Shown here: in pieces, positions 48,075 through 59,548 of the stretch
Numbering within the stretch: the stretch's first letter is position 1
Layout: each line of letters opens with the position of its first letter
NCBI RefSeq assembly: GCF_000092245.1
Contig: NC_014166.1
Location: forward strand, 1,984,001 to 2,048,000
DNA length: 64,000 nucleotides
From: Arcobacter nitrofigilis DSM 7299
GTDB taxonomy: Bacteria; Campylobacterota; Campylobacteria; Campylobacterales; Arcobacteraceae
Direction of reading: 5' to 3'
Made by a program: the position numbers and the translations under genes
Notes under the pieces: model-generated
Database searches by the model: none
What the model saw: only the letters and a program-made list of their open reading frames with translations
Told to the model about the DNA's origin: nothing

Positions 48075-48142
48075 TATAACGTTTAAAATGAGCCGATGAA
48101 TTGCCCGCAGGGTAATTTATTGGCTCCACTAGTTTGTTATAC
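48075..48142 (-). other. attC: attC site of cassette 16 (array end)
   Basis: Plus strand: TATAACG...GTTATAC with inner GAGCC-GATGAATTGCCC / GGTAATTTATTGGCTC arms. This is the main attC type. It contains the stop codon of the cyclotransferase-like gene. Confidence 0.9.
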
Positions 48143-48550
48143 CATAGTTGGTAGAGGCAAATTATAACTTTCCATACATAGTTTTAATTTTTTAAAGTAT
48201 TCAGGATTACTTTCGTTACTTGATGGTTCATTTAATAAAATACAACATAAAGTGGCAATTTTTGAACCATCATCTAATTCTACTAATATTGATTCTGAAA
48301 TATAATCAGTTAGTCCTGATTTTTTATATAAAGTATCGATTTCATCATGGGTTAATGAATATACTAATCCATAAGCTTGTGAATCTTTTTTTCTCAGAAG
48401 TGTTGCCATATTCCCAATTCTGAGTTGATAATCATTTGCAAAAGCAACTCTTTTATTTCTAGGTTCAACATTTTTATTTTTTAGTATTTCTTCATCCATA
48501 TATAATCCATAAAAAAATACATCATTTAATCTTTGGTTTGAATTATCCAT
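48137..48550 (-). CDS. Cassette 16: gamma-glutamylcyclotransferase/AIG2-like protein
   Basis: A 137-residue protein with the AIG2/GGCT start FFYGLYMDEEIL, then YQLRIGNMATLLRKKDSQAY and GLVYSLTHDEIDTLY, the fold's expected order. GGCT-type enzymes release 5-oxoproline from gamma-glutamyl groups; the catalytic Glu is not clearly identifiable here. It is 135/137 identical to the cassette 6 product at 55110-55523. TAA is formed by the attC GTTA core. Confidence 0.75.
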   Translation of the reverse strand: MDNSNQRLNDVFFYGLYMDEEILKNKNVEPRNKRVAFANDYQLRIGNMATLLRKKDSQAYGLVYSLTHDEIDTLYKKSGLTDYISESILVELDDGSKIATLCCILLNEPSSNESNPEYFKKLKLCMESYNLPLPTMV

Positions 48551-48566
48551 TTAAATCCTTTATTTG

Positions 48567-48633
48567 TATAACGGTTGACTTGAGAAATATTTGAGCCGCA
48601 GGGTCAATTATTCTCTCCAAGGTTTTGTTAGAC
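48567..48633 (-). other. attC: attC site of cassette 15
   Basis: TATAACG...GTTAGAC ends with inner GAGAAATATTTGAGCC-GCAG-GGTCAATTATTCTCTCC. This is a second attC subtype shared with the site at 53076. Confidence 0.88.
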
Positions 48634-48635
48634 TA

Positions 48636-49439
48636 CTAAAATAGTGTTTTTGTAAATTTTTCTACACCATCAACAAGTTCTTCAACTTCTTCTTTAGTTG
48701 GTTCCCTATCTTTATTATGGTCACAAAGATTACGGATGTCACCAAGCCTTTGTATTTGTCTCCAAGGTGGAACATCTAAAACACCTTCATTCTTTAGTAA
48801 TTCATTGAAATCATTAATAGTAGGACTTTTTTTACGAGTTTTAACATTATGATTAACTGCAACTTGTGCAAGATGTTTTTCAAGAACAACACCAGAAATA
48901 GCACCAGCACCACGTAAGAAACCATGTTTAATTAATTCTCGTGCTGTATCAAGTTCTGAGTCAAAAAGATCAGCTTGGACTAATTGTTTAATATCAAATA
49001 GGGTACTTTCAAAGCGTACTGAAACGGCATTTAAAATTGCTTGTTGTTGTCTAAAATGAGGTATAGCAGCATCGATATTTACAATTGTTCGACTGCCTCT
49101 TGTAACATTTAGACCTTGAAGATAATCTTCAATTCTATAGTTTTCATAATCAATATCTTTTCGTGGTTTTGGCTTTTCATAATGGCGTGTAAAATCATCT
49201 AATCTATCAGGAAGTAATTGCTTAATTAATACTTTTGCTTCCGAATACCAAGCTTGGTATTCGTTATTAAACTTTGGAAGTGATTTAATCGTTTTTGCTA
49301 ATTTTTCATCTGTTTTTGCAGCTTCATCACTTTCATCAGGATAACACTCATATTGCATGGCCATATGAAGCTTTTTCCCTTGAGCAATGAGTTTTTCTAA
49401 ATCTTTTTTGTATTTTTCAAGATTATTATTCATTTTCAA
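48636..49439 (-). CDS. Cassette 15: HEPN-like protein with R-x4-H motif
   Basis: A 267-residue, mostly helical soluble protein. The C-terminal part (about 160-265) has the HEPN-type pattern, with RGAGAISGVVLEKHLAQVA as the helix before, and DIRNLCDHNKDREPTKEEVE holding R236-x4-H241, the putative ribonuclease site. HEPN proteins often act as toxins or antiphage effectors. There is no partner gene in the cassette. Integron context supports an accessory, possibly defensive, role (inference). Confidence 0.65.
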   Translation of the reverse strand: MKMNNNLEKYKKDLEKLIAQGKKLHMAMQYECYPDESDEAAKTDEKLAKTIKSLPKFNNEYQAWYSEAKVLIKQLLPDRLDDFTRHYEKPKPRKDIDYENYRIEDYLQGLNVTRGSRTIVNIDAAIPHFRQQQAILNAVSVRFESTLFDIKQLVQADLFDSELDTARELIKHGFLRGAGAISGVVLEKHLAQVAVNHNVKTRKKSPTINDFNELLKNEGVLDVPPWRQIQRLGDIRNLCDHNKDREPTKEEVEELVDGVEKFTKTLF

Positions 49440-49459
49440 TTAACCTTTTATGTATGTTG

Positions 49460-49529
49460 TCTAACGTTTAAAATGAGCAATCAAAAAACCGCTCGCGGTT
49501 TTTGATTGGTCTCCTTTGATTTGTTGGTT
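49460..49529 (-). other. attC: attC site of cassette 14
   Basis: TCTAACG...GTTGGTT ends. The inner arms GAGCAATCAAAAAACCG / CGGTTTTTGATTGGTCTC give the longest perfect stem of the array's short sites. The arm sequence differs from the main type while the outer parts are the same. Confidence 0.87.
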
Positions 49530-50073
49530 AATCACAACAGTCATAATCTTTAAGACTGCTTGATAATTTTTCTAATTCGTTTTTATGAAAGTCATTTTGA
49601 TCTAAGCCGTTACACCTATTTTGAATGTCAGCTAATGTCCAAAAACCATCACTAGGTATGCCTTTGTTTGTAACAAGTATAGCTGTTATTACTGCATTAG
49701 TAATAGGTCTAAAATCACTGGAAATTTCTTCTACTAAATATCGTGTATCATTATCAGAAAAATAATCCAGTCCAAATGTATTTAGAAAACTATTAAATTC
49801 TTGATAATGCTTTGTTAATTTTTGCTTTGCAGCTTTACATAAATAGTTCGCTATAGTCCTCTTATATTTTAACCTTTTCAAAACTTGTTCTTCATCGAAT
49901 TTTTTTGGATTATATAATGCACAATTCCAACTTTCTTTATCTACGATAATCTTTGAATTTTTACCATCATATTTTTCAATAGCAGTAGATGGAAGAGTAA
50001 GTATTTTGATACAGTCGGATTCTAAAATATAACCTCTTTTATTAAGATGATTTGTAATTTCTTTTGATGTCAT
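49528..50073 (-). CDS. Cassette 14: unknown soluble protein
   Basis: A 181-residue protein I do not recognise. It opens TSKEITNHLNKRGYILESDC, which could be a winged-helix-like segment, has a basic middle (KRLKYKRTIANYLCKAAKQK) and ends with two Cys (KDYDCCD). No signal peptide or membrane segment. The stop codon lies in the attC core. Confidence 0.6.
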   Translation of the reverse strand: MTSKEITNHLNKRGYILESDCIKILTLPSTAIEKYDGKNSKIIVDKESWNCALYNPKKFDEEQVLKRLKYKRTIANYLCKAAKQKLTKHYQEFNSFLNTFGLDYFSDNDTRYLVEEISSDFRPITNAVITAILVTNKGIPSDGFWTLADIQNRCNGLDQNDFHKNELEKLSSSLKDYDCCD

Positions 50074-50092
50074 TAATTTCCTTTCTTATTTA

Positions 50093-50224
50093 ACTAACGT
50101 TTGAGTTGAGAAACAAGGGTATGCTATCATTTGATTATTTCAACTTTTATTTTTACTTCTTTGTTCTAAAAAGTTTGAATTAACCAATGTGTACCCTTGT
50201 CTTTCTTCCAAAGTTTTGTTAGTC
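50093..50224 (-). other. attC: Long attC site (132 bp) of cassette 13
   Basis: ACTAACG...GTTAGTC ends. The inner arms AACAAGGGTAT and TGTACCCTTGTC flank about 60 bp of AT-rich loop, so the hairpin carries a long variable terminal structure, as VCR-like sites do. Its partner is the decayed copy at 55540. Confidence 0.8.
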
Positions 50225-50626
50225 TTTTCTCATAAAAACTAGATTTTTTAGGTTATGATTGAATCCCCATTTCTCATAAAATGATTTCATCTCTTCCAAA
50301 CAATATAGTTCAAAATTTTTGACACTATTTAAATCAGGATGATTTAGGATAGTATCCATTAATAATTTTCCAAGTTTTTCTTTTCTATATTTTTTATGAA
50401 TGATTACATCAAAAATAAAAGCTTTGTAAACATAGTCCGTTAACACTCTGCTAAATCCAATTAATTGTTTATTTTTATTTTCAATACCAATAATAACTTG
50501 GGAGTTATTTAGCATAACTTCAATCTCTTTTTTATTTCGCGTGTTTGTCCACCATTCGTTTTTGTATAACTCAAAAAGTTCATCAATTTGATTTTTGGAT
50601 AATTCATGGATAATTTTATAGTTCAA
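50219..50626 (-). CDS. Cassette 13: GNAT-family acetyltransferase
   Basis: A 135-residue GNAT fold. The acetyl-CoA-binding motif A is FDVIIHKKYRKEKLGKLLMD (x-x-R/K-x-x-G-x-G/K), and ELYCLEEMKSFYEKWGFNHN is the usual C-terminal Y-x-x-x-G-F block. The substrate is unknown; GNAT enzymes are common in cassettes. It is 133/135 identical to cassette 5 at 55668-56075. Confidence 0.82.
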   Translation of the reverse strand: MNYKIIHELSKNQIDELFELYKNEWWTNTRNKKEIEVMLNNSQVIIGIENKNKQLIGFSRVLTDYVYKAFIFDVIIHKKYRKEKLGKLLMDTILNHPDLNSVKNFELYCLEEMKSFYEKWGFNHNLKNLVFMRKD

Positions 50627-50647
50627 ATTATAAATTCCTTTCTTGTG

Positions 50648-50715
50648 TATAACGTTTAGAATGAACCGATAAATTTCCCACAGGGCAATTTATTGGCTCC
50701 ACTGATTTGTTAGTC
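50648..50715 (-). other. attC: attC site of cassette 12
   Basis: TATAACG...GTTAGTC ends with inner GAACCGATAAATTTCCC-ACAG-GGCAATTTATTGGCTC, the main type with a few substitutions. The gene's stop codon overlaps the right end. Confidence 0.88.
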
Positions 50716-51801
50716 TTTCGTCGATTTATCTAACATATCTAATACTAGATAAAATGGCTTTAAGCATTTTTTACCATATGTTTCCTGCCGTGTAAGGTCA
50801 CCACATACTTTTCTTGTTTTTTTATTTATATAATAAATGGATTTCGCAATAGTTTTATTATTATCTAACTTAAAGATTTCTACGGAGCTACCATGAATTG
50901 AATCTTTATTATAAATTTGTTTTTCAATATATCCATATTCACTTTTTATGCTTTTACTTTCGACGCCATTTCTATAATTTTTTTCGCTCTTATTATCATA
51001 ATATTTATATTTGAAATCATTGTTTGTTTTTTTATTAGAGTTTAAAGTTTCAAATGTAATATTAGAGTCAATTACAATTCTTGGATAAGGAAGAATTCCA
51101 CCACCACTAGAATTATAAGTATTATAATTATCAATTTTACAATATCTACTTTGCCAACTAGAATATAAAAAAATACTATCTAAATCAACTTCTTCATATA
51201 TAGTTGTCTTAGCATTTTTACACAGTTCTTGAAATGTATTATTCCCTTTATAGTTTTTTAATATATTGCCATATGGATTTAGTAAAACAATTAAAGTAGT
51301 TACAATAGAACCAACACCAATATATTTAAATAAACTAATTTCTTTGTTACTTAAAGGTATATTATCATATGTTGTTTTTCTTAACTTTATTAATTTATAG
51401 ATAATCATTCCAATTGCAATAAACAACAACAAAATAATAACAGGTAAAATATAACTACCAAAGATTACTTTAACAGCAAAGGTGGCTCCTCCACCTCTAA
51501 TAGTACTAGAGAATAATAGAATAGCAATATAAAATACAAACAGTGTAAGTACAATACCAAAAATAATCTTTACTACTTTCATATTTTGTAGTTTCTGGTC
51601 AAAATTAAATTTTCGTAATATAAAATATATACCCAGTGTAGGTATGATTATAAATAAAGGAATCACTAAAAGTGATAGTTCAATTGATGATAAATCTCTA
51701 AATATAGATAAGTCAATAAGTGTATTTAAAAACTTTAAACTACTTCTAGCAAGAAAGCTATTCAATATAATGGTCAAAATTAATGATAAAACAATTAACA
51801 T
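50710..51801 (-). CDS. Cassette 12: multi-helix membrane protein with soluble C-terminal part
   Basis: A 363-residue protein with five hydrophobic helices in the first 185 residues and a hydrophilic C-terminal half with several Tyr/Asn-rich stretches and Cys residues. I do not recognise the family. An N-terminal helix (IVLSLILTIILNSFLA) may be a signal anchor. Cassette-encoded membrane proteins of unknown role are frequent in sedentary integrons. Confidence 0.6.
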   Translation of the reverse strand: MLIVLSLILTIILNSFLARSSLKFLNTLIDLSIFRDLSSIELSLLVIPLFIIIPTLGIYFILRKFNFDQKLQNMKVVKIIFGIVLTLFVFYIAILLFSSTIRGGGATFAVKVIFGSYILPVIILLLFIAIGMIIYKLIKLRKTTYDNIPLSNKEISLFKYIGVGSIVTTLIVLLNPYGNILKNYKGNNTFQELCKNAKTTIYEEVDLDSIFLYSSWQSRYCKIDNYNTYNSSGGGILPYPRIVIDSNITFETLNSNKKTNNDFKYKYYDNKSEKNYRNGVESKSIKSEYGYIEKQIYNKDSIHGSSVEIFKLDNNKTIAKSIYYINKKTRKVCGDLTRQETYGKKCLKPFYLVLDMLDKSTKD

Positions 51802-51827
51802 ATTACTCCAATGTGTATTTTTTGTAG

Positions 51828-51896
51828 ACTAACGTTTGTCGTGAGCAATAGTTTTCCCACTAGGGTAAACTATTGGTCTCCTCGTATTTGTTAGGT
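51828..51896 (-). other. attC: attC site of cassette 11
   Basis: ACTAACG...GTTAGGT ends with inner GAGCAATAGTTTTCCC-ACTA-GGGTAAACTATTGGTCTC. This is a variant arm sequence on the common outer frame. The ORF of cassette 11 runs about half-way into it before stopping. Confidence 0.87.
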
Positions 51897-52384
51897 TTTC
51901 TATGTAATTTGAATTTCTTTTCTATAATACTATGTAATTCATTAAAATCAATATCTAATCCAGTAGATGAAATATGTATTGGACTTTGATAAAAAACATT
52001 ATTTAAGTTTGCAAAGAGTTTTTCAAACATATTTAATTTTTTCATATATTTATTTGGATTTTTGATATGTACAGTTATAAACTTTTGTCTAGATGCATGA
52101 GTTATGGAAATGTTATTTATATCAGTCCATAAAATCATTCCAATTGAATATTCAAAAATTCCAATTTCATTAATAATAAGTCTTGGTGATTTACTAAGTA
52201 GCTCTAAACTGATTTTTATGACTCCATAGCCAAAAAACATTATACTTATCATCCCAAAAATGTTTATTAAAAAACTATCTTTCATTAACATAAGGAAACC
52301 TAAGTATACAAAAAGAACTGCCCCAAGACATAAGAAAAATATTTTAAATTTATTAACAAAGATTTTAATTTCGCTATTTTTCAT
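51860..52384 (-). CDS. Cassette 11: STM3941-like membrane protein, ending inside attC
   Basis: A 174-residue protein with two hydrophobic helices (about 15-35 and 40-60) and a PH-like soluble domain: PRLIINEIGIFEYSIGMILW, TDINNISITHASRQKFITVH and SPIHISSTGLDIDFNELHSI match the pattern of STM3941-type proteins as I recall it. The last dozen residues (RKPNKYEETNSLP) are translated from the attC, so the gene has lost its own stop or was formed without one. Confidence 0.65.
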   Translation of the reverse strand: MKNSEIKIFVNKFKIFFLCLGAVLFVYLGFLMLMKDSFLINIFGMISIMFFGYGVIKISLELLSKSPRLIINEIGIFEYSIGMILWTDINNISITHASRQKFITVHIKNPNKYMKKLNMFEKLFANLNNVFYQSPIHISSTGLDIDFNELHSIIEKKFKLHRKPNKYEETNSLP

Positions 52385-52394
52385 ATTAAATTAA

Positions 52395-52461
52395 CCTAAC
52401 GTTTGAATAGAGCTAATAAGTGACCACTAGGTAACTTATTAGCTCCTATGTTTTGTTATAC
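52395..52461 (-). other. attC: attC site of cassette 10
   Basis: CCTAACG...GTTATAC ends with inner GAGCTAATAAGTGACC-ACTA-GGTAACTTATTAGCTC, nearly perfect arms. Confidence 0.87.
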
Positions 52462-52467
52462 ATTTTT

Positions 52468-53055
52468 TTATAAACATCCTGCACGTTTTTGATGTATTGC
52501 AACATATTCTTTATATGTTGAAAAGCCTTTTGGCAATGATATTTTTGCCTGCGGATTTATTTCAAGGTTCTTTTTATTATATTCAAGACTAAGTCTATAT
52601 GGTTCACATTCAGATTTATGTTCACCCAAAAAATAATATGCAAAACCAAGGTTAAGATATGCATTTGTTAAGGCATCGTAACTTTTGATTTTTAAAAACT
52701 CTGGAATTGCTTTTTCAAAATACTCTTTAGATTTAATAAATCTATTGTCATAAGTAATGTCACTATTACGAAAACCATATTTTTTATAGTTAATATGATT
52801 TTTTTCTATTGAAGGTGAACGTAAAAAGAAGCCATAGCTTAGGTATGCTTTTCCTAAGCATTCAGAATTATTGTTTTCTTGACAAATTACAATAGCTTCA
52901 TTGATTAACTTTTCTGCTGGAAAAGGTCTTCCGCGACTATATAGTTCATCTGCCCATTTAAGTTTTTCAATAGGGTCACTTGTACTTGGTACACCTACAG
53001 CAGCACAACCACCTAAAATAATTATTGCCAATATTAAAAGTATATTTTTTTTCAT
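52468..53055 (-). CDS. Cassette 10: TPR-like lipoprotein
   Basis: A 195-residue lipoprotein: signal ILLILAIIILGG with lipobox Cys17 (GGCAAVG). The mature part is helical with TPR-like pairs (KLKWADELYSRGRPFPAEKL, GKAYLSYGFFL, NAYLNLGFAYYFLGEHKSE), so it likely binds a partner at the membrane. Two Cys (SECEPY, RAGCL-end) remain in the mature part. The role is unknown. Confidence 0.72.
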   Translation of the reverse strand: MKKNILLILAIIILGGCAAVGVPSTSDPIEKLKWADELYSRGRPFPAEKLINEAIVICQENNNSECLGKAYLSYGFFLRSPSIEKNHINYKKYGFRNSDITYDNRFIKSKEYFEKAIPEFLKIKSYDALTNAYLNLGFAYYFLGEHKSECEPYRLSLEYNKKNLEINPQAKISLPKGFSTYKEYVAIHQKRAGCL

Positions 53056-53075
53056 TTACATTTTTCCTTTTAGTG

Positions 53076-53143
53076 TATAACGTTTAAGTTGAGAAATATT
53101 TGAGCCGCAGGGTCAAATATTTCTCTCCAATGATTTGTTATAT
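53076..53143 (-). other. attC: attC site of cassette 9
   Basis: TATAACG...GTTATAT ends with inner GAGAAATATTTGAGCC-GCAG-GGTCAAATATTTCTC, the second attC subtype (compare 48567). Confidence 0.9.
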
Positions 53144-53144
53144 G

Positions 53145-53597
53145 CTAAGTTAATTCTTTCATTGAAGTAACTTTATTTTGTTGATACTCTTCTGTTAAAT
53201 TATATATTCTACCTAATTTTTGAGAAGAAGAAATAAAACTAATAAATGTACAAAGTTCTGATATCTCTTTATCTGTAAATTCTTCTTTTAATAGTTCAAA
53301 ATGTTTATTACTTATATCTTTATGATTTATTGAAAATATTTGTGCAAATGCTATTGCAAGATTTATTTTTTCATCAGTTTGATAAGGATCTACTTTACCT
53401 CCCTTAACCATACAATATTCACATTCATTTTCAAAAGCTATAGTTCTTCTAACTTGTTCTAATAATTCAGTTGATAATGAAGATGATGTAAATAATGTTA
53501 CTTCTAATTCATTCCATTTATCTAAAATATTTTTATTATGCCCAATAAGTTTTTCAAATGCTGAGTTACCATAGTTAGAAAGTTTTATTCTTGTCAT
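53145..53597 (-). CDS. Cassette 9: AhpD/carboxymuconolactone decarboxylase-like protein
   Basis: A 150-residue helical protein of the AhpD-like group. The redox motif ENECEYCMVKGGK (Cys59-x-x-Cys62) matches the E-x-x-C-x-x-C-x-x-x-H site, with the final His replaced by Gly/Lys. TEELLEQVRRTIAF-type helix (here STELLEQVRRTIAF) precedes it. It may reduce peroxides or be a redox-inactive relative. Confidence 0.72.
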   Translation of the reverse strand: MTRIKLSNYGNSAFEKLIGHNKNILDKWNELEVTLFTSSSLSTELLEQVRRTIAFENECEYCMVKGGKVDPYQTDEKINLAIAFAQIFSINHKDISNKHFELLKEEFTDKEISELCTFISFISSSQKLGRIYNLTEEYQQNKVTSMKELT

Positions 53598-53629
53598 TTA
53601 TCTTTCCTTATATTTTTATTTCTAGTGCA

Positions 53630-53697
53630 TATAACGTTTAAAATGAGCTAATAAATTGCCCGCAGGGTAATTTATTGGCTCCACTGATTTGTTAAGA
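53630..53697 (-). other. attC: attC site of cassette 8
   Basis: TATAACG...GTTAAGA ends with inner GAGCTAATAAATTGCCC-GCAG-GGTAATTTATTGGCTC, the main type. Confidence 0.9.
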
Positions 53698-53700
53698 GTA

Positions 53701-54021
53701 TTACTCTGGCTTAGGTAATATAACATCCTCCGCACCAAATGGAAGTGGAGAATAACCAGCAAAACCTGGATAACCGGGGTATCCAGGATATCCCGGGTAA
53801 CCCGGATACCCAGGGTATCCTCTATATGGTTTACTTGAAAAATAGTACAAACGATTTTCATTTGTAATAGTTCCAAGATATTCTCCATCAGTTGTTACTA
53901 CATCATTATCATCCCAAGGTAACCATCCAATCCAGTCGGCATCAGAATTATAAATATTTTTCCCAATTCTAAAAGCAATCCATTCACCACTTGAATCAAA
54001 TAAGTTGTGTACTATTGTCAT
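53701..54021 (-). CDS. Cassette 8: WIGWLPWDD-type beta protein with GYP repeats
   Basis: A 106-residue protein. The N-terminal half (EWIAFRIGKNIYNSDADWIG, WLPWDDNDVVTTDGEYLGTI) has the repeated beta-strand pattern of a small group I recall as 4-fold beta flower proteins. It is followed by six Gly-Tyr-Pro repeats (DNA 53760-53820) and a GFAGYSPLPFG tail. The repeat codons vary (GGA/GGT/GGG, TAC/TAT, CCT/CCG/CCC/CCA), so the peptide repeat is older than simple slippage. The function is unknown. Confidence 0.72.
   Translation of the reverse strand: MTIVHNLFDSSGEWIAFRIGKNIYNSDADWIGWLPWDDNDVVTTDGEYLGTITNENRLYYFSSKPYRGYPGYPGYPGYPGYPGYPGFAGYSPLPFGAEDVILPKPE
53761..53823 (-). repeat. 9-bp coding repeat (Gly-Tyr-Pro x6)
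   Basis: GGNTAYCCN repeated six times in the cassette 8 gene, visible on the plus strand as GGGTAACCCGGATACCC and similar. It is a local GC-rich island in AT-rich DNA. Confidence 0.85.
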
Positions 54022-54037
54022 TGAAACTCCTTATACT

Positions 54038-54104
54038 CTTAACGCTTGACTCTAGCCAATAAATGACCGCTAGGTTATTTATTGGCTACGAGGTTTTGTT
54101 AGAT
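54038..54104 (-). other. attC: attC site of cassette 7
   Basis: CTTAACG...GTTAGAT ends with inner TAGCCAATAAATGACC-GCTA-GGTTATTTATTGGCTA. The stop codon of cassette 7 lies in its core. Confidence 0.87.
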
Positions 54105-55031
54105 GCCTTGTTTAATTTCATCAACTTGAGCTAAATATTTAAAAAACAATTCTTTATGTGTATCACACGTCTCTTGTTTAAAAGCAATATTTTCTTTTTG
54201 AAAGTACATTTGTAATATATAACTACCTAAGTAATAAACATAAAATTCATTTTCAATCTCATCAAAGTTTAACTTATTAAGAATTGTTAATAATCTTTGA
54301 TCAATATCAGGATGTTTTTTTTGTTTTAAATTAGATTTATTGCTTAACATCAATGCAGAGCAAAAAATTATTATAATACTTAGACCTTTTTCAATTTTAT
54401 TTTTTTCATTATCTTGAATAAGCATTGAAAATGCGTATTCATCAGCTTCTTTTTCTAATTCTTGTATTTCTTCATAGTTTTCATTATTAAAACCAAAATA
54501 ATAAGAACTATGGTTATTTACTAAATGAGCAATTTCATGATAAAGTAAGAATGCAACAGATGATTGAAATAAATTATTTATCTTTTCTATATAAAATGTT
54601 TCATCATTTTTGATAGAGTAATCAATATCAGGATTTGGAAGATTTCGATTCCAATCTGAATAGTTATCTTTTAAACTTATAGACCAGCTTAATAGTTGAT
54701 TAGCTCTATTTAGTAATGGGGGACTTAAATCTATACTTCCGTCAAATGTATTATCTAAAAGTTTTTTTTGTATTCCTTCTTCATAAATAACAAAAACTGC
54801 ATATGTAAAGCTCCATAAATGAGATAAGTGTGTTTCTTGAATTGTAATTTCTTTTGTGTCTAAATTGACAAAAGGAAATTTGATAGCTTGGTCACTATTA
54901 TCAAATAAAATATTTTGAGACACTTGTCCATTCTCAACATGTTTTTTATGTATTTCACTGCTATGCTCAGTGGTGTTTTCAAAAAAATTAATAATATTAT
55001 TATGTAATACTTGAATTAGTTTTTTTTTCAT
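54099..55031 (-). CDS. Cassette 7: Lit-like HExxH metalloprotease (peptidase U49-like)
   Basis: A 310-residue soluble protein. The zinc motif HEIAH is at 165-169 in FLLYHEIAHLVNNH, with the third ligand probably in ELEKEADEYAFSML (about 191-204). The preceding NNLFQSSVAFLLYHE and NPDIDYS context and the motif position near 165 recall the E. coli phage-exclusion protease Lit (about 297 aa, HExxH near 160), which cleaves EF-Tu during T4 infection. Lit-like activity here is inference; the fold assignment is more secure. Confidence 0.68.
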   Translation of the reverse strand: MKKKLIQVLHNNIINFFENTTEHSSEIHKKHVENGQVSQNILFDNSDQAIKFPFVNLDTKEITIQETHLSHLWSFTYAVFVIYEEGIQKKLLDNTFDGSIDLSPPLLNRANQLLSWSISLKDNYSDWNRNLPNPDIDYSIKNDETFYIEKINNLFQSSVAFLLYHEIAHLVNNHSSYYFGFNNENYEEIQELEKEADEYAFSMLIQDNEKNKIEKGLSIIIIFCSALMLSNKSNLKQKKHPDIDQRLLTILNKLNFDEIENEFYVYYLGSYILQMYFQKENIAFKQETCDTHKELFFKYLAQVDEIKQGI

Positions 55032-55047
55032 TATATTCCTTTTGTCA

Positions 55048-55115
55048 TCTAACGTTTAAATTGAGCCGATGAATTGCCCGCAGGGTAATTTATTGGCTCC
55101 ACTAGTTTGTTATAC
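55048..55115 (-). other. attC: attC site of cassette 6
   Basis: TCTAACG...GTTATAC ends, inner arms as in 48075 (GAGCCGATGAATTGCCC / GGTAATTTATTGGCTC). It is 65 of 68 bases like the attC of the duplicate cassette 16. Confidence 0.9.
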
Positions 55116-55523
55116 CGTAGTTGGTAGAGGCAAATTATAACTTTCCATACATAGTTTTAATTTTTTAAAGTATTCAGGATTACTTTCGCTACTTGATGGT
55201 TCATTTAATAAAATACAACATAAAGTGGCAATTTTTGAACCATCATCTAATTCTACTAATATTGATTCTGAAATATAATCAGTTAATCCTGATTTTTTAT
55301 ATAAAGTATCAATTTCATCATGGGTTAATGAATATACTAATCCATAAGCTTGTGAATCTTTTTTTCTCAGAAGTGTTGCCATATTCCCAATTCTGAGTTG
55401 ATAATCATTTGCAAAAGCAACTCTTTTATTTCTAGGTTCAACATTTTTATTTTTTAGTATTTCTTCATCCATATATAATCCATAAAAAAATACATCATTT
55501 AATCTTTGGTTCGAATTATCCAT
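55110..55523 (-). CDS. Cassette 6: gamma-glutamylcyclotransferase/AIG2-like protein (duplicate)
   Basis: A 137-residue AIG2/GGCT-like protein with the same YGLYMD start as cassette 16. Only two residues differ (Asn/Ser in the EPSSxES loop and Met/Thr near the C-terminus), with a handful of silent changes. Both copies keep their own main-type attC, so it was duplicated as a whole cassette. Confidence 0.75.
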   Translation of the reverse strand: MDNSNQRLNDVFFYGLYMDEEILKNKNVEPRNKRVAFANDYQLRIGNMATLLRKKDSQAYGLVYSLTHDEIDTLYKKSGLTDYISESILVELDDGSKIATLCCILLNEPSSSESNPEYFKKLKLCMESYNLPLPTTV

Positions 55524-55539
55524 TTAAATCCTTTATTTG

Positions 55540-55673
55540 TATAATATTGGACTTGAAAAACAAAGGTGTTTTACACTTGATAGCTCAATCTGCCATTTTT
55601 TGTTAGTTTACAAGATAAAACTTTAAATTATCGCAAGTATATCCTTATTTTTCTTTCCAAGATTTTGTTAGTC
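55540..55673 (-). other. attC: Long attC site (about 134 bp) of cassette 5, decayed R' box
   Basis: GTTAGTC is intact at the gene side (55667-55673), but the far end reads TATAATATTGGA where TATAACG is expected, losing the AAC/GTT core. Inner arms AACAAAGGTGT and AGTATATCCTTA are only partly complementary. Compare the intact long site at 50093. Confidence 0.65.
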
Positions 55674-56075
55674 TTTTCTCATAAAAACTAGATTTTTTAG
55701 GTTATGATTGAATCCCCATTTCTCATAAAATGATTTCATCTCTTCTAAACAATATAGTTCAAAATTTTTGACACTATTTAAATCAGGATGATTTAGGATA
55801 GTATCCATTAATAATTTTCCAAGTTTTTCTTTTCTATATTTTTTATGAATGACTACATCAAAAATAAAAGCTTTGTAAACATAATCCGTTAACACTCTGC
55901 TAAATCCAATTAATTGTTTATTTTTATTTTCAATACCAATAATAACTTGGGAGTTATTTAACATAATTTCAATTTCTTTTTTATTTCGTGTGTTTGTCCA
56001 CCATTCATTTTTGTATAATTCAAAAAGTTCATCAATTTGATTTTTGGATAATTCATGGATAATTTTATAGTTCAA
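55668..56075 (-). CDS. Cassette 5: GNAT-family acetyltransferase (duplicate)
   Basis: A 135-residue GNAT protein that differs from cassette 13 at two positions (Val/Ile in the EIEVML helix and Ile/Val in motif A). Motif A HKKYRKEKLGKLLMD and the C-terminal YEKWGFNHN are intact. Its attC has decayed while that of cassette 13 has not, so this copy may be locked in place. Confidence 0.82.
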   Translation of the reverse strand: MNYKIIHELSKNQIDELFELYKNEWWTNTRNKKEIEIMLNNSQVIIGIENKNKQLIGFSRVLTDYVYKAFIFDVVIHKKYRKEKLGKLLMDTILNHPDLNSVKNFELYCLEEMKSFYEKWGFNHNLKNLVFMRKD

Positions 56076-56094
56076 ATTATAAATTCCTTTGTAG

Positions 56095-56162
56095 ACTAAC
56101 GTTTAAAATGAGCCAATGAATTGCCCGCAGGGTAATTTATTGGCTCCTCTGATTTGTTATAT
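56095..56162 (-). other. attC: attC site of cassette 4
   Basis: ACTAACG...GTTATAT ends with inner GAGCCAATGAATTGCCC-GCAG-GGTAATTTATTGGCTC, the main type. It is separated from the gene stop by 54 bp. Confidence 0.9.
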
Positions 56163-56216
56163 TTTTTGTTTTCACACTCTAAAAGTGGAGATTCACTCAC
56201 AGAAGTGTAACTTTCA

Positions 56217-56771
56217 CTATAACGGAAATGATTGATTGTAAACCTCGGAATCCTCAATTTTTATAATGCATTGCCTGCTCGCTTCTGTCGGATATACAGT
56301 TCCAAGCAATGGAGCTACTGCTTTGTAAAAAACTTTATCGCAGTTTTCATCTTTCATAAAGCTACTAGATTGACCATTAGCTAATTCCTTTATTTTACAA
56401 GCTTTAACTAATTCATCAGGTAATTTTGAAAATGCTATAGTTTTATTCCCTGAGGTTGATAACTTTACAGTTGCATTGCAGCCACCTGAAACACTAGAAT
56501 TCTCATATTTTGAATCAAATACTACTTTTGTATAATCATTGCCTGAGAATATAATCTTATCGCCTATTTTAGCTAGGTAATGACTGGGCTTAAATAGTAT
56601 CTTCTTTATGCACACGGTTGACTGAATAGATTTTCCTTTAAAATTTGCTGTTTGCGATTTACACCCTGGTTTAGCTGTTGAAAACTCTCGGGGAATATCA
56701 CCTTTTTTAGCACATCCCACAAATATCATTATAGTTAATAGTGATATTATCCCAAATATTTTTTTCTTCAT
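56217..56771 (-). CDS. Cassette 4: lipoprotein of unknown function
   Basis: A 184-residue lipoprotein: signal IFGIISLLTIMIFVG with lipobox Cys20 (FVGCAKKG). The mature part has eight or so Cys (KPGCKSQT, STVCIKKIL, SGGCNATV, KACKIKE, DENCDKV, RQCIIKI), suggesting disulfides, and mainly beta character. I do not recognise the family. Gene GC is slightly above its neighbours. Confidence 0.68.
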   Translation of the reverse strand: MKKKIFGIISLLTIMIFVGCAKKGDIPREFSTAKPGCKSQTANFKGKSIQSTVCIKKILFKPSHYLAKIGDKIIFSGNDYTKVVFDSKYENSSVSGGCNATVKLSTSGNKTIAFSKLPDELVKACKIKELANGQSSSFMKDENCDKVFYKAVAPLLGTVYPTEASRQCIIKIEDSEVYNQSFPL

Positions 56772-56812
56772 TTCAAACTCCTAAATTCGAATTATAGTTA
56801 CATTTTTTTATA

Positions 56813-56880
56813 TATAACGTTTAAAATGAGCCAATAAATTGCCCGCAGGGTAATTTATTGGCTCCACTAATTTGTTAAAT
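56813..56880 (-). other. attC: attC site of cassette 3
   Basis: TATAACG...GTTAAAT ends with inner GAGCCAATAAATTGCCC-GCAG-GGTAATTTATTGGCTC, the most regular main-type copy, with perfect arms. Confidence 0.92.
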
Positions 56881-56883
56881 ACT

Positions 56884-57675
56884 TTAGCATGGTGCAACAC
56901 TGAATGCACTTCCAATGGCATTAGCCAAAACATTAATTATTTCTGTTGTGATTCTAGCTTTATTGAAAATAATATCACAAAGAATTGCAAAGATTGCCAA
57001 CAGATAAGCTAAGTAGCCAAAGCCTGTGTAATCGTTATATAGAATTGTGTAAAACCAGTTTTGTTCGAAGAGGTAAAAGTACGAATTTATAGCAGTTGAT
57101 AAGAATAGTAATATTCCGGGAAGAAATAAATGTTCAGTAGCTTTTGGCTTCAAAAAAGAGGTTACTAATAAAAAGATAAACACAATAGAGTTTATCCCTA
57201 AAAATATTCTGACATCCATTGTCAAATTTTCTACAATTTCCATATATTTAGCTTGAGTAAAATTTATCAATTTCTCTTTTGCCTTTTCCAGTGAAGCAAT
57301 TTCGAATTTAATTGAAGCTTTCAAACGTTCTTCCCATTTTTTTCTACATTCGCAACTAAGATTGCCCATTTTAGCAATTTGAGCAGCTATAATAGCTGGC
57401 ATATCATCTTTGAGATGTTGTTTTAACTCTGCTAGTTTGTCATCCGTTTTTTGATGCAAAACTTTGGCTTTATCGCCAAGTAATCTTTTAAGTGCTTTTG
57501 ATTGAGGCAATATAATGGAGTCAATTTTCTCATTCATTTCATTTTTGAGTTTCCATTCAATAAACCCTTTCGCTGATTTTTCCACAGTGTGCGGGTCTGA
57601 AAATGTCAATACAAGCAGAGGAACAAATAGTATAATACCAACCAAGCCAAAAGTACGAAGCAGATGTTTTTTCAA
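56884..57675 (-). CDS. Cassette 3: membrane protein with coiled-coil domain
   Basis: A 263-residue protein: signal anchor at about 8-26, a helical, Lys/Glu-rich soluble region (about 35-145, with LSCECRKKWEERL), then four hydrophobic helices (about 155-250). I do not recognise the family. The order 1 TM - coiled coil - 4 TM suggests a membrane-bound complex subunit. GC content is a little above the array mean. Confidence 0.6.
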   Translation of the reverse strand: MKKHLLRTFGLVGIILFVPLLVLTFSDPHTVEKSAKGFIEWKLKNEMNEKIDSIILPQSKALKRLLGDKAKVLHQKTDDKLAELKQHLKDDMPAIIAAQIAKMGNLSCECRKKWEERLKASIKFEIASLEKAKEKLINFTQAKYMEIVENLTMDVRIFLGINSIVFIFLLVTSFLKPKATEHLFLPGILLFLSTAINSYFYLFEQNWFYTILYNDYTGFGYLAYLLAIFAILCDIIFNKARITTEIINVLANAIGSAFSVAPC

Positions 57676-57692
57676 AAAAATTCCTTTATGTG

Positions 57693-57760
57693 TTTAACGT
57701 TTAAAATGAGCCGATGAATTACCCGCAGGGTAATTTATTGGCTCCTCTGATTTGTTAGCA
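57693..57760 (-). other. attC: attC site of cassette 2
   Basis: TTTAACG...GTTAGCA ends with inner GAGCCGATGAATTACCC-GCAG-GGTAATTTATTGGCTC, the main type. The stop codon of cassette 2 lies in the GTTAG core. Confidence 0.9.
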
Positions 57761-58558
57761 TTTTTGAGTCATATCTAGTTTTCTATGTACAAAAGATATC
57801 GTAGATAATATATCTAAAGCATCTTGTTCAGATAATGACCAATAACTTTTTGGAACATGAGCTATAGGATTTCTGATTGCACTAAATAGTCCCACTAGCA
57901 TATTACTAAAACCTTTTTGTTCACTTTTATCTGTTTCTGATTCTAATGCATTTATACCTAAAATGGGACTTTTTACTGAAAATGCAGTGTTAACAAGTTC
58001 TGCTCCATCTAAAGAAAGCCCTGACATATTTCTTATTCTTTGTGCTAAACCTTTTATCGCTTCCAAAACGGCGTGAAAATAGTTTTCATCTAATAATTCA
58101 GCTTTACAATAATTATAAATTTCTATATGTGCTTTTCTATCCTCTAATTTGGATTTAAGTGCACCAGCTCTTTCTCTTGCCCCTCTTAGTGTTGTTTCTT
58201 TTGTACTTTTAATAACTTTTCCATCTTCTCTAACTTCAAAACCTGAAAAAGACAATACAATATTCAATTCTGTTCTACGCCATTCAAATATTTCTTTATC
58301 TCTTGAGTAATTTACTGGATTCATTGCTCTATTAATAAACATTATTAAAAAATTTCCAATCTGACGCTCATTCTGTTTATGTACCATTGCATTAAATAGA
58401 CGCTTCCATTTAGTTGCAGATGGATCTGTATCTTGTACTTTACAATCCTGTAAAATATATCCAATTTGTGTCCCTGTTAAACCATTGTTGGTATCAGCTA
58501 AAACTTTACAAATTGCTTCTAAGTTCTGTGCATCAAACGGTTTGATATGTTCTGCCAA
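57755..58558 (-). CDS. Cassette 2: TIGR02391/Ymh-type HEPN-like protein
   Basis: A 267-residue protein. The C-terminal domain (about 155-265) has ENYFHAVLEAIKGLAQRIRN, GFSNMLVGLFSAIRNPIAHV and SEQDALDILSTISFVHRKLD, the pattern of TIGR02391 (Hypoth_Ymh) proteins; R229-x4-H234 in RNPIAH fits a HEPN nuclease site. The N-terminal half is helical (IGYILQDCKV...) and may be a regulatory part. Start is TTG with AGGAG seven bases upstream. An antiphage or toxin role is likely but unproven. Confidence 0.75.
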   Translation of the reverse strand: MAEHIKPFDAQNLEAICKVLADTNNGLTGTQIGYILQDCKVQDTDPSATKWKRLFNAMVHKQNERQIGNFLIMFINRAMNPVNYSRDKEIFEWRRTELNIVLSFSGFEVREDGKVIKSTKETTLRGARERAGALKSKLEDRKAHIEIYNYCKAELLDENYFHAVLEAIKGLAQRIRNMSGLSLDGAELVNTAFSVKSPILGINALESETDKSEQKGFSNMLVGLFSAIRNPIAHVPKSYWSLSEQDALDILSTISFVHRKLDMTQKC

Positions 58559-58577
58559 GAGTTCTCCTATATTTTAT

Positions 58578-58648
58578 GCTAACGCCCTGGCTTTGTGGCG
58601 CACCGAAGCGCCAGCGTAGGTGCGTCCGCCAACAGCCACTTGTTATAG
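58578..58648 (-). other. attC: GC-rich, foreign-type attC site of cassette 1
   Basis: GCTAACG...GTTATAG ends with inner CCCTGGCT-TTGTGGCGC and GCGCCAGCG, CGTCCGCCAACAGCCAC. It shares only the end boxes with the other 15 sites and is far richer in GC. Confidence 0.85.
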
Positions 58649-58936
58649 CTTTTTCATTAATGTTACTTCAGTTGGTGCTGCCAGCCAGTGTTCGAATTTC
58701 TGTGCGACCAGCTGTGTATGCTTCTCTTGATGATGGTTATCTAAGGCAGCCTTCGTCTGCCATTCTTCAAAAAGGTGAATGTGACGTCCACAATCAGACA
58801 CGAACAGATCAAACTGAACGCAGCCATCTTCATTTCTTGTCGCCTCTAGAATCCCTAGCAACTCATTCTTTGCCTGCTCAAAGTGCTCATTCTTAGGTGT
58901 GATTTTTGCGAAAACAAACGTGTTACTTTCTGACAT
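58643..58936 (-). CDS. Cassette 1: antibiotic biosynthesis monooxygenase (ABM) domain protein
   Basis: A 97-residue ABM/YgiN-type protein: ATRNEDGCVQFDLFVSD and HIHLFEEWQTKAALDNHHQE match the family's strand-2 and W-x-x-x-x-x-L-x-x-H motifs. The gene is plainly GC-richer than the rest of the window (near half G+C by eye) and uses codons such as CTG, GCC and CGC. With its own GC-rich attC this marks a recent gain from an unrelated host. AAGGAG lies before the ATG. It is closest to attI, so the best expressed if Pc works. Confidence 0.85.
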   Translation of the reverse strand: MSESNTFVFAKITPKNEHFEQAKNELLGILEATRNEDGCVQFDLFVSDCGRHIHLFEEWQTKAALDNHHQEKHTQLVAQKFEHWLAAPTEVTLMKKL

Positions 58937-58953
58937 AAAACTATCTCCTTTAC

Positions 58954-59000
58954 GACTAACTTTAGCTATAACTATTTATTGAATATACATTATATAAATA
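58954..59000 (-). other. attI: Candidate attI site
   Basis: On the minus strand GTTATAGCTAAAGTTAGTC ends exactly where cassette 1 begins. GTTAGTC is the same core as several attC R boxes, and the AAAGTTAG stretch is like the simple site of attI1. A second core, GTTATAG, lies 11 bp upstream. Boundaries are approximate. Confidence 0.6.
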
Positions 59001-59015
59001 AATTACTTAAATCAA
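58989..59015 (-). promoter_or_regulatory. Candidate cassette promoter Pc
   Basis: On the minus strand TTGATT (59015-59010) and TATAAT (58994-58989) are separated by 15 bp, pointing into cassette 1. The -10 is perfect; the spacer is short. Confidence 0.4.
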
Positions 59016-59125
59016 CTTGTTTATTATATATTCATATAAATAGTTAATTTTAAGCATTTTATAAAATAAATATTATAAACTGCAATATTTTTATTATTTG
59101 TTATAATTTTTATGTTTATTTTATG

Positions 59126-59154
59126 TTGATATCTAGAACTTTAATATATATAAT
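59126..59154 (+). promoter_or_regulatory. Consensus sigma70 promoter of the dead integrase gene
   Basis: TTGATA (59126-59131), a 17-bp spacer and TATAAT (59149-59154), followed 60 bp later by AGGAG and the ATG of the integrase remnant. Confidence 0.7.
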
Positions 59155-59213
59155 GTATGTTAAAAGTGAAAAATTTAACTTTAAACAACATTTTTTATAA
59201 TACAGGAGTTACT

Positions 59214-59279
59214 ATGGCTAAAAAACTGCTTGATATAATGAGGGATTAGATTAGATTTTATAAAAAGAACTATATATAA
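59214..59279 (+). pseudogene. intI: Integron integrase gene, 5' remnant
   Basis: AGGAG then ATG and MAKKLLDIMRD-stop-IRFYKKNYI-stop. Integron integrases commonly open with (K)(L)LD-x-(V/M)RD-x-IR followed by a basic, aromatic stretch, and the frame keeps IR after the TAG. GAT-TAG-ATT-AGA becomes GAT-AAG-ATT-AGA (D-K-I-R) by one base, so a nonsense change is the simplest origin. The other 300 or so codons are absent. It faces away from the array next to attI, as intI does. Confidence 0.65.
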
Positions 59280-59298: not shown

Positions 59299-59322
59299 CT
59301 TGTGCTTTTTAGCACAAGTTTT
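59299..59322 (+). terminator. Hairpin with T-run after the integrase remnant
   Basis: CTTGTGCT and AGCACAAG form a perfect 8-bp stem with a TTTT loop, followed by TTTTCC. It could be a terminator or the edge of an inserted repeat. Confidence 0.6.
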
Positions 59323-59548
59323 CCTATTTCTTCTGTGCCCTTTCAGGGTCACGCTTTGTTACTTTTTATCAAAGAATTTCGTCACTTTGTTCCAGCATCC
59401 AACGATAAAATAAGTAACCATGATAATTCTGCTTGCAGATAAAAAATCTGTTTTCAATTGCTATCGCTAATGTTAGCTTTCATTTGTATTGTTATTTTAT
59501 TATGAGATTAAGTGAACTTTTTCTATTTAGAGGTTTAAAACAGAAAAC

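Follow-up and report, generated by a model that had tools for sequence, protein, structure and literature searches.

An integron array headed by an integrase stump

The stretch of DNA analysed here, hereafter the window, is 64,000 nucleotides long and corresponds to bases 1984001-2048000 of the complete, single-contig genome of Arcobacter nitrofigilis DSM 7299 (G000; 3.19 Mb). It holds a cassette array, an attI site and the first codons of an integron integrase gene (intI), close to guaA (Table 1). Fifteen attC sites, supported by direct repeats, attC alignment, hairpin folding and a covariance model, lie between 48077 and 58645 in a single orientation on the minus strand; they combine RYYYAAC/GTTRRRY-like ends with a hairpin, and the strand that should recombine forms the stronger one (z -5.3 versus -3.6). 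The attC of cassette 1 was the weakest aligned attC in the covariance model search, and its GC-rich composition suggests late capture from a foreign source. The cassette genes include a HEPN-like PD-Lambda-3 component (57755-58558; defence model PD-Lambda-3_B, E 1e-126), a Lit-like protease (54099-55031; defence model Lit, E 3e-29), a GNAT acetyltransferase and gamma-glutamyl cyclotransferase-like proteins. Cassette 15 and its copy inside cassette 5 agree at exact cassette boundaries and differ at 6 of 492 positions (1.2%). Cassette 5 as a whole (55053-56099) looks like a copy of cassette 15 joined to a copy of cassette 12, with a degenerate attC between them.

Table 1. Features of the integron locus, in window coordinates
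Feature	Position	Strand	Evidence or remark
Cassette array, 15 attC and 15 cassettes	48077..58971	-	genes read away from attI
Cassette 15	48080..48571	-	boundary-to-boundary duplicate at 55053-55544 (98.8%)
attC of cassette 1	58580..58645	-	GC-rich, unlike the other 14
First cassette gene, antibiotic-biosynthesis-monooxygenase (ABM) domain protein	58643..58936	-	PF03992, E 1e-11
attI core, TAACTATTTATTGAATATACATTATATAA	58969..58997		near-invariant in all attI sites aligned
Putative -10 box TATAAT of cassette promoter Pc	58989..58994	-	inferred
intI promoter-like site, TTGATA-17-TATAAT	59126..59154	+	position conserved among relatives
AGGAG ribosome-binding site of former intI	59204..59208	+	kept as (T)AGGAG in relatives
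intI stump, codons 1-15, MAKKLLDIMRD-TAG-IRF	59214..59258	+	aligned with relatives' intI, both intact and decayed
Terminator-like hairpin directly after stump	59299..59318	+	
Intergenic repeat	59326..59540		also beside guaA in sister species
guaA	60239..61774	-	conserved neighbour of integron in several genera

The recombination point falls between 58971 and 58972 (G^TTA on the minus strand), and the first cassette starts exactly there. From 58967 to about 59258 runs a block made up of attI, the intI promoter, the ribosome-binding site and the first 15 codons of intI, which matches loci with an intI or an intI remnant in other Arcobacteraceae at E values of 1e-84 to 1e-109 and is, in the best cases, 82-87% identical to the relatives' intI upstream regions and first codons. 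Positions 58967-59255 are likewise 80-86% identical to the attI regions of integrons whose intI is open, for example those of G055 and G062. The stump itself aligns with intact intI over 45 nt, together with about 245 nt of upstream attI and promoter: its ATG lies at 59214, a TAG stands at codon 12 (59247-59249), the residues I, R and F follow up to 59258, and integrase homology ends there, at about codon 15. Intact intI genes of the Arcobacteraceae start MAKKLLDIMRDKIRFKHYS, and the intact proteins of relatives start M(A/G)KKLLDIMRDKIRFKHYS. The resemblance is no accident: by these alignments, the segment 59214-59258 represents the start of an integron integrase gene, facing the fifteen-attC array on the minus strand. 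A first-pass annotation, made from the window alone, had read the promoter, AGGAG, ATG and MAKKLLDIMRD-TAG-IR as a fossil intI in the proper place and orientation, had given LLD-x-(V/M)RD-x-IR as a common start of such integrases, and had supposed the remainder of the gene lost. Every one of these elements lies where it was placed, and the relatives' loci bear out the identification, the protein start and the loss of the rest.

The promoter-like site (TTGATA at 59126-59131, TATAAT at 59149-59154, spacer 17 nt) matches the consensus at 11 of 12 positions. Promoter-like matches in this AT-rich stretch are no commoner than in shuffled sequence, so that it is the position and conservation of the site, and not its consensus score, that support the call. 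Only this genome has the perfect TATAAT; most aligned relatives that have the block carry CATAAT. A 78-bp palindrome at 58967-59045 was considered as an attC-like folded form of attI and rejected, because other genera have not conserved its second arm.

Truncation of intI and the later history of the array

No intact integron integrase was found in the complete genome, where nothing exceeds the curated TIGR02249 cut-off of 265 bits, a threshold that intact proteins of relatives pass (401 bits, for example). The best match to the integron integrase model in the genome is a XerC/D-like recombinase, and both tyrosine recombinases scanned as candidates for an IntI acting in trans proved to be XerC/D-like. 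The search for intI in the rest of the genome that the first-pass annotation had called for yielded only a second fossil, beside guaB (C1:1402091-1402470; L002, L171), in which an attI of a second type stands directly before the C-terminal part of intI, namely its last ~60 codons; no attC was found on its cassette side. Whole-genome searches detected an integron integrase over the TIGR02249 cut-off in 16 of 104 members of the Arcobacteraceae, the named relatives being Arcobacter and Poseidonibacter records. One further intI, in G072 (L182), has a broken frame and was not counted as intact, and the viral contigs searched held no related intI. The sister species G032 carries a nearly whole intI away from guaA (C24), with its last residues altered; this gene was rejected as the occupant of the guaB site of our second fossil, only the 3' part of intI matching.

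Of the parts of a complete integron, the window thus retains an attI next to intI and an array of attC in one orientation leading from it; in place of a functional intI in cis it has only codons 1-15 with a stop. The remnant is recognisable and cannot encode the protein, as in an intI pseudogene (pseudo-integron). With two or more attC and no integron integrase nearby, the locus is now a CALIN by the standard definition, albeit one with attI kept, because attI and 15 cassettes remain without an integrase. We believe, with a probability of roughly 0.88, that the locus is a chromosomal integron of the sedentary kind, in a long-standing family position beside guaA, with an intI truncated after about codon 15, and that it persists as an attI-keeping CALIN dependent on integrase in trans.

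The guaA location recurs across the family. An attI, an intI or both adjoin guaA in G032, G053, G059, G060, G062, G063, G067, G068, G077 and G078, and the intI there is open in G059 and G062 and decayed in G060, G063, G067, G068, G077 and G078; in G033, of the same genus, no attI or attC was found at the guaA locus. It could be argued that no intI ever stood here and that attI arrived with the 5' end of intI as a ready-truncated unit, given that other genera have truncated attI units with a common junction at various places. The presence of a whole intI on the guaA side in two genomes, and of decayed forms there in other genera, makes this unlikely; the guaA locus of G033, empty of an integron, speaks neither for nor against it.

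The first-pass annotation had named a change of AAG to TAG at codon 12 as the lesion and had proposed that a sister strain with a continuous intI and AAG at 59247 would confirm it. The sister G032 (same genus; guaA 96% identical) instead has a truncated gene at the same guaA site, MGKKLLDIMRDKIRFKNKN followed by a stop, with AAA at codon 12, and AAA is also the codon of the nearest relatives, AAG being confined to more distant copies. Both G032 and this genome seem to lack the same ~8 bases after IRF, although the evidence for a truncation in common comes from a handful of aligned bases beyond codon 15, and there could have been two separate deletions. Because the stump recurs in G032 with AAA, and no stop, at that codon, the truncation is probably older than the TAG: it probably preceded the split from the sister species, and the TAG probably arose later, in DNA that was already non-coding. 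That the TAG inactivated intI first, with deletion of the remainder next and the array frozen from then on, would accord with a real TAG and a genome devoid of intact intI, but we consider it improbable in view of the AAA in the sister's stump, the wholly different cassette content of that sister and the young, cassette-exact duplication in the present array.

Nor does the stump behave like a conserved element. Short N-terminal stumps recur, with 11, 13, 13 and 19 codons in G000, G056, G067 and G032, as might be expected if the 11-codon reading frame were retained for a function, as a leader peptide or regulatory element, and were no fossil. Yet the lengths and stops of these stumps all differ, and several sites without intI lack even a start codon. 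Furthermore, the stump differs from that of G032 at 4 of 44 bases (9%), against 8% at guaA third positions, and two of the four differences fall in codon 12. With differences that look neutral, two of them within one codon, the stump behaves as expected for unconstrained pseudogene DNA. Selection on the N-terminal codons was accordingly dismissed, and a leader peptide is very improbable. The intergenic repeat that follows the stump, and abuts it in G032, neighbours guaA in each of the three species of the genus; it recurs elsewhere in this genome, at C1:2884662-2884810.

The array seems to have changed after the local integrase died, because the sister shares none of its cassettes and the duplicate of cassette 15 is young. 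At the DNA level G032 holds 0 of the 15 cassettes, only attC-sized matches being found; G032 is a draft genome, so that some cassettes may be missing through assembly, but loss of all 15 in this way is unlikely. By its divergence, the duplication of cassette 15 would be younger than the species split. As the species probably split only after the local integrase had died, and the duplicate is younger than the split, we infer that some integrase acted in trans in the past. The first-pass annotation had described the array as frozen unless helped in trans; the freezing is not supported, in view of the sister's cassettes and the young duplicate, and help in trans is the likelier history. Homologous recombination, and not IntI, could however have produced the duplicate.

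Taken together as a model of truncation with service in trans, intI would have been cut after about codon 15 in an ancestral integron on the guaA side, before the sister species separated, and the TAG would have appeared afterwards in non-coding DNA. The attI core may supply a -10 box for Pc on the minus strand, by which the head of the array would still be transcribed, and any capture or loss of cassettes would now need IntI provided in trans.

attI sites across the Arcobacteraceae

A cassette promoter within attI is suggested by comparison of 61 attI sites. The minus-strand TATAAT lies in place, 20 bp before the cut, at 56 of them, and an open reading frame of at least 60 aa starts no more than 400 nt from the cut at 60 of the 61 (median 24 nt); of random positions, used as a control, 15% have an open reading frame starting within 35 nt. 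A strict sigma-70 scan at Pc returned no promoter and no -35 box. We propose that the attI core is cassette promoter and recombination site in one, an arrangement that would account for the retention of attI after the loss of intI.

The same sites, which were picked by similarity to the window's attI and some of which lie near contig ends, so that the proportions are not unbiased, have an open intI in 6 cases, a degraded one in 11 and none within 1.6 kb in 44. There are attC on the cassette side at 47 of the 61, and attC on the other side only at loci with several attI sites. Among the 61 attI sites examined, integrase loss, in itself a common form of decay, is, as far as these sequences indicate, what most such platforms of the Arcobacteraceae have undergone.

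Several copies of the second-type attI, in three genera, share one truncation junction, at which intI is cut after ~5 codons and a dispersed repeat follows. These integrase-less units (L186, L192, L195, L199, L200, L203, L204 and L208) extend ~430 bp from the attI core and are 88-95% identical, while guaA third positions differ by 29-37%. As the dispersed repeat also occurs without attI, repeated joining at one place may have taken place. In at least three genomes, G016, G012 and G067, an attI of this sort lies within a cassette array, right after an attC (L204, 5977-6475; L195, 7610-8107; L173, 3982-4226), and this attI with its promoter looks as if it travelled like a cassette. A tentative and rather doubtful extension is that the attI-Pc head persists, and perhaps spreads, in the Arcobacteraceae without an integrase, as a non-autonomous integron platform comparable to short transposon derivatives that depend on a full copy.

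Comparison with known integrons

The closest parallel is the Xanthomonas integron at ilvD, which like the present one at guaA occupies an ancestral fixed location and in which intI has been inactivated repeatedly and independently by stops, frameshifts and large deletions while the arrays persist (PMC12444791). Repeated decay of intI beside persisting arrays is thus common to Xanthomonas and the Arcobacteraceae. In contrast to the Xanthomonas arrays, which are described as stable after inactivation (PMC12444791), the array studied here is wholly unlike that of the sister with which it shares its stump, and, as another difference, a single genome of the Arcobacteraceae can carry several attI-headed arrays.

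In having 15 attC and no integrase gene in reach, the locus resembles the CALINs of Cury et al. (IntegronFinder 2.0, PMC9024848); it differs from them in that attI survives, along with the region of the intI promoter and 15 codons of the gene. Since integron finders do not model attI outside class 1, where IntegronFinder leaves attI undetected (PMC9024848), an attI-keeping CALIN is normally invisible. About one third of intI genes have been reported to be pseudogenes (Nemergut et al. 2008, PMC2426708). The pseudo-integrons of that study likewise combine integrase decay with cassettes left behind, but here the remnant is a 45-nt stump, below detection by protein searches. Arrays without an integrase, and mobilisation in trans, are established (PMC12444791, PMC9024848, PMC8618304), and the locus is therefore of an already known kind, a pseudo-integron or CALIN that kept attI. 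No description of Arcobacter integron arrays was found in the literature searched. What is newer is the number of attI-headed arrays without an integrase, some with one truncation junction across genera.

The locus indicates that an array can outlive its own integrase while retaining attI. As integrase-less, attI-headed arrays form the majority of the attI sites examined in the Arcobacteraceae, the movement of cassettes may in many cases rely on an integrase encoded at another place in the cell or the lineage, and a testable question is raised: are CALINs dead remnants, or are they satellites that an integrase serves in trans? Given the likely phage-defence genes in this array, the Lit-like protease and the PD-Lambda-3 component, what becomes of the array once the integrase is lost may be of consequence for the host.
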